12,407 nucleotides of DNA from Pseudomonadota bacterium (lineage in GTDB: Bacteria; CALINM01), in the NCBI GenBank assembly GCA_026415985.1, contig JAOAGA010000054.1:1-12407 (forward strand). The letters run 5' to 3'. A model generated the notes under the pieces. It saw only the letters and a program-made list of their open reading frames with translations, did not search any database and had not been told where the DNA came from. Shown piece by piece: positions 3,454 through 12,407 of the stretch (positions are counted from its first letter, which is position 1; each line of letters starts with the position of its first letter). The position numbers and the translations under genes are program-made.

Positions 3454-3675
3454 ATGAAAATTTTTGTAATATTTTTACTTTTATTATCTGCTACTTCTTC
3501 CTATTCCTTTGAGTGTAAGGTTTGTCACAGCAAAAACCCTAAGATGGTATCTATGCACAAGGCCCTTAATTTTAAGGACTGTTTTAACTGTCACAGGCCC
3601 GGTGGAATTAAGAAGGATAACCTAAAAGAACAGGCGAAATCCGATGAAAAATGTATCCGATGCCACAACCGGTAA
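3454..3675 (+). CDS. small periplasmic tri-haem cytochrome c
   Basis: An exported electron carrier of 73 residues. Residues 1 to about 18 are a signal peptide (basic start, hydrophobic FVIFLLLL core, small residues before the mature end), leaving about 55 residues. Three CxxCH haem-attachment motifs are visible: CKVCH (21-25), CFNCH (43-47) and CIRCH (67-71). Beyond the three motif histidines only His35 is left as a possible distal ligand, with Met31 and Met34 nearby, so not all haems can be bis-His. It resembles cytochrome c7-like or class III fragments but I cannot place it in a named family. The FNR-type dyad upstream suggests induction without oxygen. The start is supported by the signal peptide and by the extended -10, not by a ribosome site. 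The cupin gene follows after 42 bp on the same strand. Confidence 0.9.
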   Translation: MKIFVIFLLLLSATSSYSFECKVCHSKNPKMVSMHKALNFKDCFNCHRPGGIKKDNLKEQAKSDEKCIRCHNR

Positions 3676-3717: not shown

Positions 3718-4044
3718 ATGATAAAGGAAAGTTATCTGGCAAAGCCATTAGATTTAAAAAACCTTGTTGAGTATCAGGAAGATTCAGTAATCAGCAAAGA
3801 AATTCTCAAAAAAGCTACCGGGACATTAACCGTTTTTGCCTTCGACAAAGGGCAGGGATTAAGTGAACACACCGCTCCTTTCGACGCTATTGTGATTATT
3901 CTTGATGGTTGTGCCAATATATACATCAACAAGGAGCTGAAAGTAGTCAAAACTGGTGAGATGATTATAATGCCTGCCAATATTCCTCATTCTCTGTCTG
4001 CCTCTCAACGTTTCAAAATGCTGTTAGTAATGATTAAAGGTTAG
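3718..4044 (+). CDS. small cupin-fold protein
   Basis: A 108-residue single-domain cupin, a double-stranded beta-helix. The first motif region reads GQGLSEHTAPFDAIVIILDG (about residues 47-66) and the second GEMIIMPANIPHS (about 80-92). His53 and His91 are kept, but the usual second histidine and glutamate of motif 1 are replaced (HTAPFD in place of HxH...E), so metal binding is weak or uses other ligands. Stand-alone proteins with this same pattern are common in anaerobes and have no assigned reaction. I can name the fold but not a substrate. AAAGGTGA upstream of the ATG is a good ribosome site. It may be co-transcribed with the cytochrome gene. Its stop overlaps the stop of the convergent thioredoxin by 4 bp. 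Confidence 0.85.
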   Translation: MIKESYLAKPLDLKNLVEYQEDSVISKEILKKATGTLTVFAFDKGQGLSEHTAPFDAIVIILDGCANIYINKELKVVKTGEMIIMPANIPHSLSASQRFKMLLVMIKG

Positions 4045-4481
4045 AGGTTAATATATCTACTTAAAAAGGCATTTAATTGCTCAAAAGGCAAAGCACCCGC
4101 AGTCTGGCCAAGTATCTCTCCTGCTTTTAAGAGGATTAGAGCTGGTACACCTTTTATAGAAAATTTCTGAGCTATCTCTGGATTACTCATAACATTTATC
4201 TTTACAACCTTAATTATCCCCTTCCATCTTTTGGCTATCTCGTCCAGAACCGGACTTAGTTTAAGACAATAAGGTCAGGTGGGGGACCATAAATCAAGCA
4301 AAACATAACCGCTATAGTTTTCAACTTCGTCAATATATTGACTGAAATTAATATCAAGGGGTCTATCGAGAATATTCAAATAATTATTACATTTGCCACA
4401 GCGAGGGTTACTGTGAATCTTTTCAAATAAAACCCTGTTTAAGGCCCCACAGTTACTGCATTTTATTATTGTGCCTCTCAT
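4041..4481 (-). CDS. zinc-ribbon thioredoxin with UGA-encoded selenocysteine in the active site
   Basis: A disulfide reductase of the thioredoxin 2 type in which selenocysteine probably replaces the first catalytic cysteine. Reading through one TGA (4277-4275) gives 146 residues. An N-terminal zinc ribbon is seen at Cys8/Cys11 and Cys28/Cys31. The thioredoxin fold follows: YVLLDLWSPT (59-68), then Sec69, then Pro-Tyr-Cys72, then a helix with LDEIAKRW, a KVVKINV strand, GVPALILL with the cis-proline (Pro113) and a C-terminal helix ending at a TAA (4043-4041). No other stop occurs after the TGA. The residue at the TGA is exactly the first Cys of the expected CxxC. A SECIS-like hairpin lies just past the TGA and selA is in the window. 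GAGGGAG, 5 nt before the ATG, is the ribosome site. It is the last gene of an operon, 12 bp after tldD. The alternative is a nonsense mutation or base error. Confidence 0.88.
4235..4277 (-). promoter_or_regulatory. SECIS-like hairpin downstream of the thioredoxin UGA
   Basis: In the mRNA, GUCC (plus 4255-4252) pairs with GGAC (4245-4242) around a 6-nt loop GGUUCU. A lower CUA/UAG pairing (4259-4257 with 4237-4235) adds a second short helix. The loop starts 23 nt after the UGA and opens with GG followed by U, as expected for bacterial SECIS elements (loop about 16-37 nt from UGA, G in the first two loop bases). The upper stem is only 4 bp, so the fold is modest. Confidence 0.6.
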
Positions 4482-4493
4482 ATTGTCTCCCTC

Positions 4494-5837
4494 TTAAATT
4501 TTTCCACCTATCGTCATGGCAGGAATAAATATGCTTGGCTGTCCGTCACCAACAGGAACTCCCTGACCTTCTTTTCCGCAGGTACCTATGGCAGTTCCAA
4601 AATCATTTCCTACCGCCTCTATATCGTTTAGAACTTTTGGTCCATTTCCTATGATGCTTAAATTTTTTAAAGGATAGGTTAACTCTCCGCCTTCAATAAA
4701 ATAGCCATCCTGAATCTCAAAAATAAAATCACCGGTAAGAGTGTTTACCTGCCCGCCTCCCATTTTACCTACATAAACACCTTTGTCTATGGACTTTATA
4801 ATATCAAAAACATTATCATTTCCCGGTAGGATATAAGTATTTGACATTCTCGGATAGGGCTTAAAATTATAACTCTGCCTTCTTCCGTTACCTGTTGAAG
4901 TTTTTCTGTGTTTGTAGGCATAAAACTTATCATACAGGTAATTGATAAGCACTCCCTTTTCAATCAAAACGGTCTCTCTTGCTGGAGTACCTTCATCATC
5001 GCAATAAAAACTACCCCAGCCATTCTTTACAACACCACTATCTATAACTGTAATCTTATTACTTGCTACTTTTTCATTTAACTTCCCACCGTAGATAGAA
5101 ATACCCTTATCAACTAAATCTGCCTCCAGTCCATGACCTACTGCTTCATGGATTAAAGTACCACCCGCTGAAGAAGAAATTATAACCGGATAGATCCCTG
5201 ACGGACCATCTTTTGCGATAAGCTGTTTCTTCGCCCTATCTATACAGATTTTAGCCAGTTCTTCCAGATCTTCTTCTGAAAGTTCTTTAAAGGTATATCC
5301 CTGACTTTCATAAACAGACGCCTTTTCATTACCTCTTTTTATAGTGAGATTCAAAAAAATTCTTTCACCAACATTTAAGCTCTCCGTTTTTTTCTGCTCA
5401 CTACTGGCAATCTGAAAATTTTTTCTATACCTCTGATATAAAATATTAATATTTAAAAGACTTTCTATCTCTGACTTCAGCATGGACGATAAGCCTTTTA
5501 TCTGAGAAATAAGCTTTTCCTTATCCTTTTTAAAATCAAACTCATCGGTATATATCTTTTCTTCGAGAAAAGTAAAATTTCCTCTGCCCTCTTCTGTATT
5601 TTTTATATGGTTATGAATTAAATCCTTTTCAGGTAAAAAGTTTGTAGCAGAAAAAAAGACCTCTTCCTTTACAAATGTTCTAAGGGAGATACCGGTGTCT
5701 TTTACCTGGATACATTTCTCAATATTATCATTAAAAAGCTCAACGATAAATGTATCTATTTCTTCCTTATAAACTTCACTAAAGTCACCGACATTTGCTA
5801 TTTTATGAATAATTTTTTCTGTATCATAATTAATCAT
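4494..5837 (-). CDS. tldD: TldD-family zinc metalloprotease
   Basis: TldD pairs with TldE (PmbA) to form a cytoplasmic protease that degrades unfolded peptides and in some systems trims peptide natural products. The 447 residues fit the family. The zinc-binding HExxxH motif is HEAVGH at 230-235, followed by GLEADLV as in TldD, and the C-terminal ligand cysteine lies in AIGTCGKEGQGVPVGDGQ (Cys420). HExxxH marks this as the catalytic TldD type, since TldE lacks it. No tldE is in the window. GGAGG lies 6 nt before the ATG. The start overlaps the upstream small gene by 8 bp and the Sec-thioredoxin follows after 12 bp, so the three genes form one transcription unit. Confidence 0.93.
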   Translation of the reverse strand: MINYDTEKIIHKIANVGDFSEVYKEEIDTFIVELFNDNIEKCIQVKDTGISLRTFVKEEVFFSATNFLPEKDLIHNHIKNTEEGRGNFTFLEEKIYTDEFDFKKDKEKLISQIKGLSSMLKSEIESLLNINILYQRYRKNFQIASSEQKKTESLNVGERIFLNLTIKRGNEKASVYESQGYTFKELSEEDLEELAKICIDRAKKQLIAKDGPSGIYPVIISSSAGGTLIHEAVGHGLEADLVDKGISIYGGKLNEKVASNKITVIDSGVVKNGWGSFYCDDEGTPARETVLIEKGVLINYLYDKFYAYKHRKTSTGNGRRQSYNFKPYPRMSNTYILPGNDNVFDIIKSIDKGVYVGKMGGGQVNTLTGDFIFEIQDGYFIEGGELTYPLKNLSIIGNGPKVLNDIEAVGNDFGTAIGTCGKEGQGVPVGDGQPSIFIPAMTIGGKI

Positions 5838-6045
5838 TTACTTCCTCCAAAATCTTAAAAGAAATACTTTTACCGATAAGTTCCAATAACTCCTTAATCT
5901 CTTTGATATAATAGGGAGAAACTATTAGTTCTAAGATTGGTATAGTCTTATCGACTGTTCTTACTATAGCAAAACGTTCCGACACTTCTAATATGGAACA
6001 AAAAAAGACAATATCTCTTTTATCCATAGTAAGCAGGTATTTCAT
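5830..6045 (-). CDS. small conserved protein resembling DUF4911
   Basis: A 71-residue protein starting MKYLLTMDKRDIVFF. It has the alternating pattern seen in DUF4911-type proteins: an N-terminal strand with a D/KRDI segment, a helix, an FAIVRTVD segment, a hydrophobic strand (IPILELIVSP) and a C-terminal helix rich in Glu and Leu (EIKELLELIG). I recognise the general pattern but assign no function. The open frame can be extended to a TTG at 6075, but the ATG at 6045 lies exactly 6 nt after an extended -10 element and has no Shine-Dalgarno site, so I take 6045 as the start of a leaderless message. An ATG at residue 7 (MDKRDI) is also possible. It heads the operon with tldD and the Sec-thioredoxin and overlaps tldD by 8 bp, which suggests translational coupling. 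Confidence 0.72.
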   Translation of the reverse strand: MKYLLTMDKRDIVFFCSILEVSERFAIVRTVDKTIPILELIVSPYYIKEIKELLELIGKSISFKILEEVND

Positions 6046-6051
6046 AAAAAT

Positions 6052-6060
6052 ATAATAGCA
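6052..6060 (-). promoter_or_regulatory. extended -10 element of the DUF4911-tldD-thioredoxin operon
   Basis: On the minus strand TGCTATTAT (6060-6052) is followed by ATTTTT and then the ATG at 6045. The predicted transcription start is the A of the ATG. No good -35 hexamer is visible (TTTAAT at a 17-nt spacer), as tolerated by extended -10 promoters. Confidence 0.5.
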
Positions 6061-6132
6061 AAAAAAGACAAACAATTAAAATGCTTAAGATAATGAAAGG
6101 AAAAAGAAGGTTTTAAGACTGTACAATATTTT

Positions 6133-6166: not shown

Positions 6167-7966
6167 TTAGAATAATCCTTTTACTTTACCTGTATTTACA
6201 TCCACATCAATTCTTCTGAATGCAGGGTCTGATGCGGTTCCGGGCATGAGCTTAATTGCTCCGGCAACAGGAACTATAAATCCTGCACCTTTGAAGACAA
6301 GGATATCTCTGACAAAGAGTTTCCAGCCTTTAGGAGCACCTTTGAGATTTGGATTATCGGAAAGGCTTAAGTGTGTTTTAACCATACAGGTGCCTAACTT
6401 AGAAGATTCAGGATCTGCTTCTAATGCCTTTGCCTTTGCCAATGCCTCAGGTGAGTATTCAACACCATCTGCACCATAAACGTTAGTTGCAATAAGGTTA
6501 ATTCTTTCTCTAAGCGGAGTTGTAAGCTCATAGAGGAACTTGAAGTTGTTTGGCTCGTTACAGGCATCAATTACTGCATCGGCAAGTTCTAATGCACCCT
6601 CTCCACCATACTGCCAGTGCTTGGATAGGGCGACTCTTGCACCAGCCTGCTCACAGAGTCTTCTAACCGCTTTAATCTCATTATCAGTATCTGTATAGAA
6701 GGCATTGATACATACAACAGGATTAACACCTGCTTTCTTAACAATATTGATACAGTGCAGTAAGTTCTCAAATCCTTTCTCTACATAGCCAACATTTTCT
6801 TTTGTGTACTCTTCTGGTAGTGGTCTTCCCGGTACCGGGATTGGAGCACCCCCGTGGCTTTTTAAGGCTCTTATTGTAGCAACGATAACCGCTGCGTTTG
6901 GTTTTAAACCAGAGTATCTGCATTTTAAGTTCCAGAACTTCTCAAAACCGATATCTGCTGCAAAGCCAGACTCAGTTACGTTATAATCAGCCAATTTTAG
7001 GGCAACTCTATCGGAGATAACAGAAGACTGACCAATAGCTATATTTGCAAAGGGACCTGCATGAACGAACACAGGTTGTCCTTCAACGGTCTGAATTAAG
7101 TTTGGATTTAACGCGGGAAGCATCCAGGCGGTCATAGCACCTGCTACATCTAAATCTTCACAGGTCACTGGCTTGCCGGACTTGCTGTATCCAACAACAA
7201 TTTTGCCGATTCTTTCTCTAAAATCTTTTAAGTCCTTGGCAACAGATAATATAGCCATCACTTCTGAAGAAACCGCTATATCAAAACGGGATTCCATCAT
7301 AAATCCGTCTTGCTTTCCACCAAGACCAATAATTATCTTTCTTAAGGCCTGGGCACAGAAGTCCATTATCCATCCCATCTGGACGTTTCTTGCATCTACA
7401 TCAAGTCTTTTTAAACCTCTTTTTGCAAGCTCCTCGTCTGTATAATTATACTCATGCTGCATCCTTGAGGTTAATGCAACCATTGCTAAGTTATGGGCGT
7501 TCATAATGGCATTAATATCGCCTGTAAAACCTAAAGAAAACTCTGTCAAAGGAATACACTGGGAAAGACCGCCACCTGCAGCTGAACCTTTTACGTTCAT
7601 TGTTGGTCCACCAGAGGGCTGTCTAATTGCAGCAACTACTTTCTTACCTCTTTTTCCCATTCCCTGAACAAGACCAATAGTAGTAGTGGATTTTCCTTCG
7701 CCAAGCGGAGTTGGTGTAATTGCTGTAACATCAACATATTTACCGTCTGGTCTGTCCTTTAATCTTTCAAGAACCTTAAGATAGTCAACCTTAGCAATAT
7801 AGTGTCCGTAAGGTAAAAGCTCTTCATCGGTTAAACCAAGCTCTTCGGCGATCTGTTTGATGGGTTTCATGGTCTTTTCGGCTTCTTCAGCAATCTGCCA
7901 GTCCTTTAGCTCTCCTCTCCCTAACTTCTCTGTGAATTCTTTGTAAGTCTTTTCACTTAGTGGCAT
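6167..7966 (-). CDS. fhs: formate-tetrahydrofolate ligase
   Basis: Joins formate to tetrahydrofolate using ATP to give 10-formyl-THF, feeding one-carbon metabolism and, where present, the methyl branch of the Wood-Ljungdahl pathway. The P-loop-like PLGEGKST is at residues 87-94 in the family context [12 protein letters not shown]. Other signatures are [17 protein letters not shown] (117-133), FTGDINA (147-153), GPFANIA, YGADGV and the C-terminal [13 protein letters not shown] and VKGLF. The product is 599 residues, about 40 longer than the acetogen enzyme of about 559. The extra length is mainly an N-terminal extension and an insert rich in charged residues around 166-192, after the AHNL segment. 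This looks like a long subtype, not a fusion. GGAGG lies 5 nt before the ATG. No other Wood-Ljungdahl gene is in the window, so acetogenesis cannot be inferred. Confidence 0.97.
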
Positions 7967-11385: not shown

Positions 11386-12407
11386 TTAATAAGCTGATAA
11401 ATAATCTTTGATTGCATTAATAATTAGCGGAACCTCTTCATTAAAAATTGTTCTGAAATCTATTATGACATAACCATCTTTTTGTCTTATAAGTATTGGT
11501 GGATCGTTGTTTAAAAAGAAATTTCTTGTCCTTTCCTCACCTTTCCGGGATTTAAACCTTATCACATAGGTAGGTAAGGTCTTTAAAGGGAGGCTCCCTC
11601 CTCCAAAGGTAGCCATATCTTGAATAAGTTCCGCTTTAAGATCCTTAAAACCTTTAATCTCTTTAAAAACCCTGAGTGCTCTTTTCTTTATTAACTTAAT
11701 ATCTGTAAATATCATATCAAGCACCGGTGACTTTGAATAATCTTCTATTGATAAATAATAAAGGAGTCTTTCAAGGTAATATATGGTAATTTTATCAGGT
11801 CTGATAGCCCTATAAAGGGGGTGTCTTTTCATCTTTTCTATAAACAAAGGTTGACCTAAAATTAATCCTCCCTGACAGCCACCCAAAAGTTTATCGCTAC
11901 TGAAAGAAACAATGTCAGCACCGTTTTTTAGTGTTTCCGAAATGGTTGGTTCATCCTTTTCAATACTTTTGATTATACTTAACGCTCCACTACCAATATC
12001 GTAATAAAAGGGAATATTAAATTTTCTGGCCAATCCCGATAACTCTTCTACAGAGACCTCTTCCACAAAACCATCAATTCGAAAGTTACTTCTGTGAACC
12101 TTTAAGATTAAGCCTGTATTATCATTAATAGCCCTCTCATAATCTGATAACTTGGTTTTATTGGTAGTTCCCACCTCTCTCATGGTACAACCAGAAAGCT
12201 CCATCACCTCGGGTATTCTGAAGGAACCACCAATCTCAACAAGTTCAGAACGGGAGACAATAACTTCCTTACCCTTAGCAAGGGCCGAAAGGACAAGTAA
12301 ACAGGCACTGGCATTGTTATTAACTAATAATATTCCTTGAGTTCCGAAAAAATCCGGCGACAAGTTGTCCTGTCTTGATCCCCTTATCCCTTTGTTTAAA
12401 TCAAACT
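11386..12407 (-). CDS. selA: L-seryl-tRNA(Sec) selenium transferase, 5' end beyond the window
   Basis: SelA is a PLP enzyme that converts Ser-tRNA(Sec) to selenocysteinyl-tRNA with selenophosphate, the tRNA charge needed to read UGA as selenocysteine. The frame is open to the right edge and 339 residues are visible. The part upstream of the TTG at 12363 (DLNKGIRGSR) is clearly SelA sequence, so that TTG is not the start. Landmarks are VNNNASA (visible residues 28-34), GKEVIVSRSELVEIGGSFRIPEVM, EVGTTNKT, the PLP lysine in SFSSDKLLGG (visible Lys172) and GGGSLPL. Compared with E. coli SelA (463 residues, Lys295) about 120 N-terminal residues are missing. The stretch between RGSR and VNNN is 16 residues where E. 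coli has 19, and it lacks the usual LLC.LTGAE, which looks like local divergence. It supports the Sec reading of the thioredoxin. selB, selC and selD are not in the window. Confidence 0.96.
   Translation of the reverse strand, partial: FDLNKGIRGSRQDNLSPDFFGTQGILLVNNNASACLLVLSALAKGKEVIVSRSELVEIGGSFRIPEVMELSGCTMREVGTTNKTKLSDYERAINDNTGLILKVHRSNFRIDGFVEEVSVEELSGLARKFNIPFYYDIGSGALSIIKSIEKDEPTISETLKNGADIVSFSSDKLLGGCQGGLILGQPLFIEKMKRHPLYRAIRPDKITIYYLERLLYYLSIEDYSKSPVLDMIFTDIKLIKKRALRVFKEIKGFKDLKAELIQDMATFGGGSLPLKTLPTYVIRFKSRKGEERTRNFFLNNDPPILIRQKDGYVIIDFRTIFNEEVPLIINAIKDYLSAY

Follow-up and report, generated by a model that had tools for sequence, protein, structure and literature searches.

In thioredoxins, the first active-site residue attacks the disulfide of the target and the second serves for release (PMC8615215). 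In the zinc-ribbon thioredoxin of Deinococcus, this active-site pair is restored by thioredoxin reductase and NADPH, with mutation of either active-site cysteine giving an inactive protein, and mutants of the zinc site remaining partly active (PMC8615215). Thioredoxin appears as a known selenoprotein family in PMC13188914, which lists a selenocysteine (Sec)-containing thioredoxin (PF00085, UxxC) as experimentally verified, citing Kim et al. 2015, in agreement with the statement of the first-pass annotation that Sec-thioredoxins exist. The window analysed here, a stretch of 12,407 nucleotides, holds what is very probably a genuine selenoprotein gene, encoding a cytoplasmic zinc-ribbon (Trx2/TrxC-type) thioredoxin with a UGA-encoded selenocysteine at residue 69 (Sec69; Table 1).

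The gene is read on the minus strand, with an ATG start and 68 codons preceding the TGA, and a further 77 codons leading to a TAA stop, giving the translation M...LLDLWSPT-TGA-PYCLKLSP...RYINL-TAA on read-through. The plus strand carries many stops across 4041-4484. The first-pass annotation had proposed a thioredoxin with an in-frame TGA at this place, which is borne out, with the strand, which it had left unnamed, now given; it had also seen no further stop after the TGA, as is the case, however its count of 74 residues beyond this codon falls short of the actual 77. Its expectation that an automatic caller would halt at the TGA and return a 68-residue fragment agrees with the mechanical list of open reading frames, where the thioredoxin frame ends at the TGA after 68 amino acids. 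Both halves of the frame are coding, as the match to the thioredoxin family (PF00085, residues 47-141, 71 bits) runs over the TGA, and the Trx2 zinc ribbon (PF21352, residues 8-31) precedes it, with both matches lying above their curated cut-offs. The G+C content at third codon positions is 0.37 5' of the TGA and 0.31 3' of it, with a value of 0.33 in the neighbouring genes.

Table 1. Positions in the window of the predicted selenocysteine thioredoxin gene, its elements, and nearby or related genes.
Feature	Position	Strand	Details and basis
Predicted Sec-thioredoxin gene	4041..4481	-	146 residues including one in-frame TGA; ATG 4481-4479; TAA 4043-4041
In-frame TGA, codon 69, predicted selenocysteine	4275..4277	-	stands opposite the leading Cys of the CxxC motif in thioredoxin alignments
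U-P-Y-C active site, codons 69-72	4266..4277	-	translation and alignment
N-terminal zinc ribbon CxxC...CGxC (C8, C11, C28, C31), PF21352	4389..4460	-	profile match and alignment
Conserved cis-proline P113 codon	4143..4145	-	translation and alignment
Shine-Dalgarno-like GAGGGAG	4487..4493	-	5 nt 5' of the ATG; by eye
SECIS-like hairpin	4235..4274	-	folded RNA 3' of the TGA, -8.0 kcal/mol
tldD-like metallopeptidase gene	4494..5837	-	ends 12 nt 5' of the thioredoxin gene; ORF list and profiles
selA	11386..12405	-	339 codons; 5' part lost at contig end; profile matches

The read-through protein has the Trx2-type architecture but lies outside the TrxC equivalog as curated, since its top NCBIfam model, TrxC (NF008229), scores 90.8 bits against a family cut-off of 125. 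The glutaredoxin profile (PF00462) also matches, with 26 bits against a cut-off of 22.9, far below the score of PF00085. Alignment with seven zinc-ribbon homologues shows residues C8, C11, C28, C31, D63, C72, P113, G121, and G129 to be invariant, and places residue 69, encoded by the TGA, in an invariant Cys column. Between the active-site residues, the dipeptide is PY in this protein, compared with GP or GA in the Cys homologues, and the Sec position is preceded by Thr where the same homologues have Trp. The closest solved sequences include the zinc-ribbon thioredoxins 2 7ysi and 7d6l, with residue 69 standing opposite the first CxxC Cys of these chains, and of an ancestral thioredoxin, in the PDB alignments. 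The predicted structure has a mean pLDDT of 83.4, and the five PDB chains ranked highest against it are all Trx2, in keeping with a thioredoxin fold in which the cis-proline P113 faces the active site. In a protein search of 193 genomes, every homologue read has Cys at the TGA position.

The two comparisons suggested by the first-pass annotation therefore yielded a full-length Trx2-type alignment with the TGA on the catalytic Cys column, and Cys-containing homologues from the 193-genome search, the PDB, and the seven-homologue alignment. Of the thioredoxin features it had noted beyond the TGA, the cis-proline is the invariant P113. Its proposal of a Sec69/Cys72 (UPYC) thioredoxin 2-type enzyme with a zinc ribbon is supported by PF21352, PF00085, the alignment, and the Sec pathway of the genome.

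This pathway is present as a whole in the source genome, a draft of 161 contigs that is 84% complete. The three genes that the first-pass annotation had named for a genome search were all found, with tRNA-Sec (selC) scoring 76.6 bits and bearing a UCA anticodon, selB scoring 373 bits, and selD 324 bits, and the selA gene that it had placed in the same window was confirmed, truncated by the contig end. tRNA-Sec also occurs in two genomes of the sister genus. The selD gene has an in-frame TGA of its own at the classical place, within ASGUAAK, and is itself a selenoprotein gene (L012, 1487-1560; MSDKIRLLDYASASGUAAKMGPGDL). Across 80 kb of the source genome, selD and the thioredoxin gene are the only two in-frame TGA read-throughs that were recognised as members of protein families. 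Among Sec clients, formate dehydrogenase is very common. The molybdopterin Fe4S4 domain (PF04879) was not found in the source genome at its 84% completeness, and hence neither was the alpha subunit of a typical formate dehydrogenase; the peroxiredoxin genes, examined as other Sec clients, have no in-frame TGA. A formate-tetrahydrofolate ligase gene lies in the window at 6167-7966, despite the lack of a formate dehydrogenase match.

The RNA 3' of the TGA can be folded into a hairpin with a lower stem of seven pairs, a 7-nt bulge, an upper stem of five pairs (four Watson-Crick and a G-U), and the loop GUUC, with 24 nt between the UGA and the loop. As an Rfam search found no known RNA family at the thioredoxin gene, the hairpin was judged by the published structural limits for bacterial SECIS elements. 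In PMC13188914, these are a loop of 3-9 nt with G in loop positions 1-2, an upper stem of 4-16 bp, a spacing of 16-37 nt, and an energy of <= -7.5 kcal/mol; the hairpin satisfies all four limits of the model as given there. Synonymous recoding of the codons after the TGA was chosen as the null since minimum-energy z-scores do not single out the region, with dinucleotide shuffles showing the hairpin to be no stronger than expected (z -0.24). Among 1000 such recodings, 3.4% satisfy the model, and 2.4% do so with a GG or GU loop at the same energy, whilst its strict form is satisfied at ~6% of codons drawn at random from neighbouring genes. Because these sequences also pass, the support that the hairpin lends to Sec is modest and short of proof. 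As a control, the hairpin of selD from the source genome also satisfies the model, and by eye both hairpins carry GUCCGG at the upper stem.

The weak point of the selenoprotein reading is that the gene is a singleton. In a DNA-level scan of ~780 genomes, the pattern D[FL]W[AST]xxUxxCxxxxP matched once in the source genome and four times elsewhere, and pattern scans of these genomes found no second TGA-bearing zinc-ribbon thioredoxin. The four other matches (G173, G399, G745, and G418) are chance or unrelated, with no zinc-ribbon thioredoxin recognised, and in three TGA-containing rows of the homologue search (G151, G167, and G143) the TGA falls outside the active site. The match in G418 (L069, 1501-1544) reads DFWTYCUINCLHVLP and stands before NHL-like repeats in another frame; it may represent an NHL-repeat thioredoxin-like protein in a Sec form, or else result from gene damage or misassembly. 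A scan of viral contigs found no relative, and the relatives listed by a plasmid search are all at <60% identity, the best being annotated as ordinary thioredoxins. No frame-breaking relative was found, and no close relative either. In the Sargasso Sea survey, single-sequence clusters were held to be only candidates, because an in-frame TGA can arise through sequencing error, with known selenoprotein families exempt (PMC1088965). A second TGA homologue is asked for when new families are to be discovered, and is no defining property of a selenoprotein.

Because the gene is a singleton, a base error and a fresh nonsense mutation both keep a small share of the probability. The former, or a strain variant, would make the true codon TGC or TGT and the product an ordinary Cys zinc-ribbon thioredoxin (CPYC), and is improbable. 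A single substitution in a fragmented draft would be enough, and such an origin would fit the Cys seen in all homologues and the want of a second TGA homologue in the ~780 genomes; however, the error must have struck the sole codon at which Sec is chemically sensible, with only one of the 64 single-base routes from the thioredoxin frame to any stop yielding TGA at codon 69, in a genome that carries the full Sec pathway and ahead of a hairpin that satisfies the SECIS model. Less probable again is a recent nonsense mutation, by which the gene would be a fresh pseudogene and the 68-residue zinc-ribbon fragment its only product. Such a loss would be in keeping with both sister-genus genomes, which keep the DUF4911-tldD pair and have no thioredoxin gene behind tldD, and with the other thioredoxin, CGPC, of the source genome. 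It would, however, have struck exactly the catalytic codon and left the 77 codons that follow free of frameshifts and second stops, with all functional columns retained, the codon composition the same on both sides of the TGA, and the start and Shine-Dalgarno-like site intact. Decoding of UGA as an amino acid other than Sec, whether through leaky suppression or through reassignment across the whole genome, would also supply the read-through that a complete protein requires, but is highly improbable, as TGA terminates eight of the 51 long open reading frames in sampled stretches of the source genome, which rejects genome-wide reassignment, and the tRNA-Sec with its UCA anticodon is canonical.

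Taking the gene as a selenoprotein gene, we infer the reading of UGA as Sec, the binding of zinc, the catalytic cycle, and thioredoxin reductase as the partner, all four. SelB would deliver Sec-tRNA(Sec) to the UGA, aided by the SECIS hairpin just 3' within the coding sequence, to give a product of ~16 kDa. The U69 selenolate would then attack the target disulfide and C72 would resolve the mixed selenosulfide, with thioredoxin reductase and NADPH re-reducing the U69-C72 bond. The source genome has a gene for thioredoxin reductase (TrxB, 372 bits), and one for a second thioredoxin, of the ordinary kind, with the motif CGPC. It may be speculated that the PY pair shifts the enzyme towards glutaredoxin-like chemistry.

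The tldD-like gene and the thioredoxin gene are probably on one transcript. The DUF4911 and tldD genes (4494-6075, minus strand) adjoin here and in both sister-genus genomes, and this adjacency in three genomes suggests that DUF4911, which is uncharacterised, is functionally linked to its neighbour. On the plus strand, positions 3454-3675 encode a very small multihaem cytochrome of 73 residues, in which three CxxCH haem motifs (Paired_CXXCH_1) accompany a likely signal peptide.

As selenocysteine thioredoxins have already been described, the kind of protein is known, and what is unusual in it is the zinc ribbon and the UPYC motif, which resembles that of glutaredoxins. The first-pass annotation held the combination of a zinc ribbon with UxxC to be uncommon, which fits the pattern sampling of ~780 genomes, where no other case was found. 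No zinc ribbon is mentioned for Sec-thioredoxins in the accessible parts of the review literature, and a search covering mainly open-access papers turned up no description of a zinc-ribbon Sec-thioredoxin, which is weak evidence of novelty. A more tentative suggestion, which we consider rather doubtful, is that a zinc-ribbon thioredoxin lineage gained Sec independently and adopted the glutaredoxin-type UPYC without the usual Trp. If so, the result would be a selenoenzyme whose redox potential and targets are altered, in a host where no typical formate dehydrogenase was found to explain the upkeep of the Sec pathway.

If the selenoprotein reading is true, the range of selenocysteine thioredoxins extends to the zinc-ribbon Trx2 type, and automatic annotation records a 68-residue fragment from which the catalytic half is missing. 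The protein would be small and easily expressed, allowing the effects of Sec, the zinc ribbon, and the PY pair to be separated. Current understanding of Sec insertion would be unaffected.

Compared with known systems, the predicted protein shares with the Sec-containing thioredoxin (UxxC) the thioredoxin fold, Sec in place of the first CxxC Cys, and a full bacterial Sec pathway; it differs in adding an N-terminal zinc ribbon, in its UPYC motif, and in having Thr rather than Trp before Sec. With thioredoxin 2/TrxC (7ysi, 3p2a, 2ppt, and 7d6l), which provides its best fold and sequence matches, it has in common the domain order and the four zinc cysteines, whereas the catalytic residue there is Cys, usually within WCGPC, at what is here the Sec position. 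A P-Y dipeptide between the redox residues is the classical glutaredoxin active-site pair, and is shared with glutaredoxin (CPYC) and Sec-glutaredoxin (UxxC). In contrast to these enzymes, the remainder of the protein is that of a thioredoxin (71 bits for PF00085, and 26 bits for PF00462).
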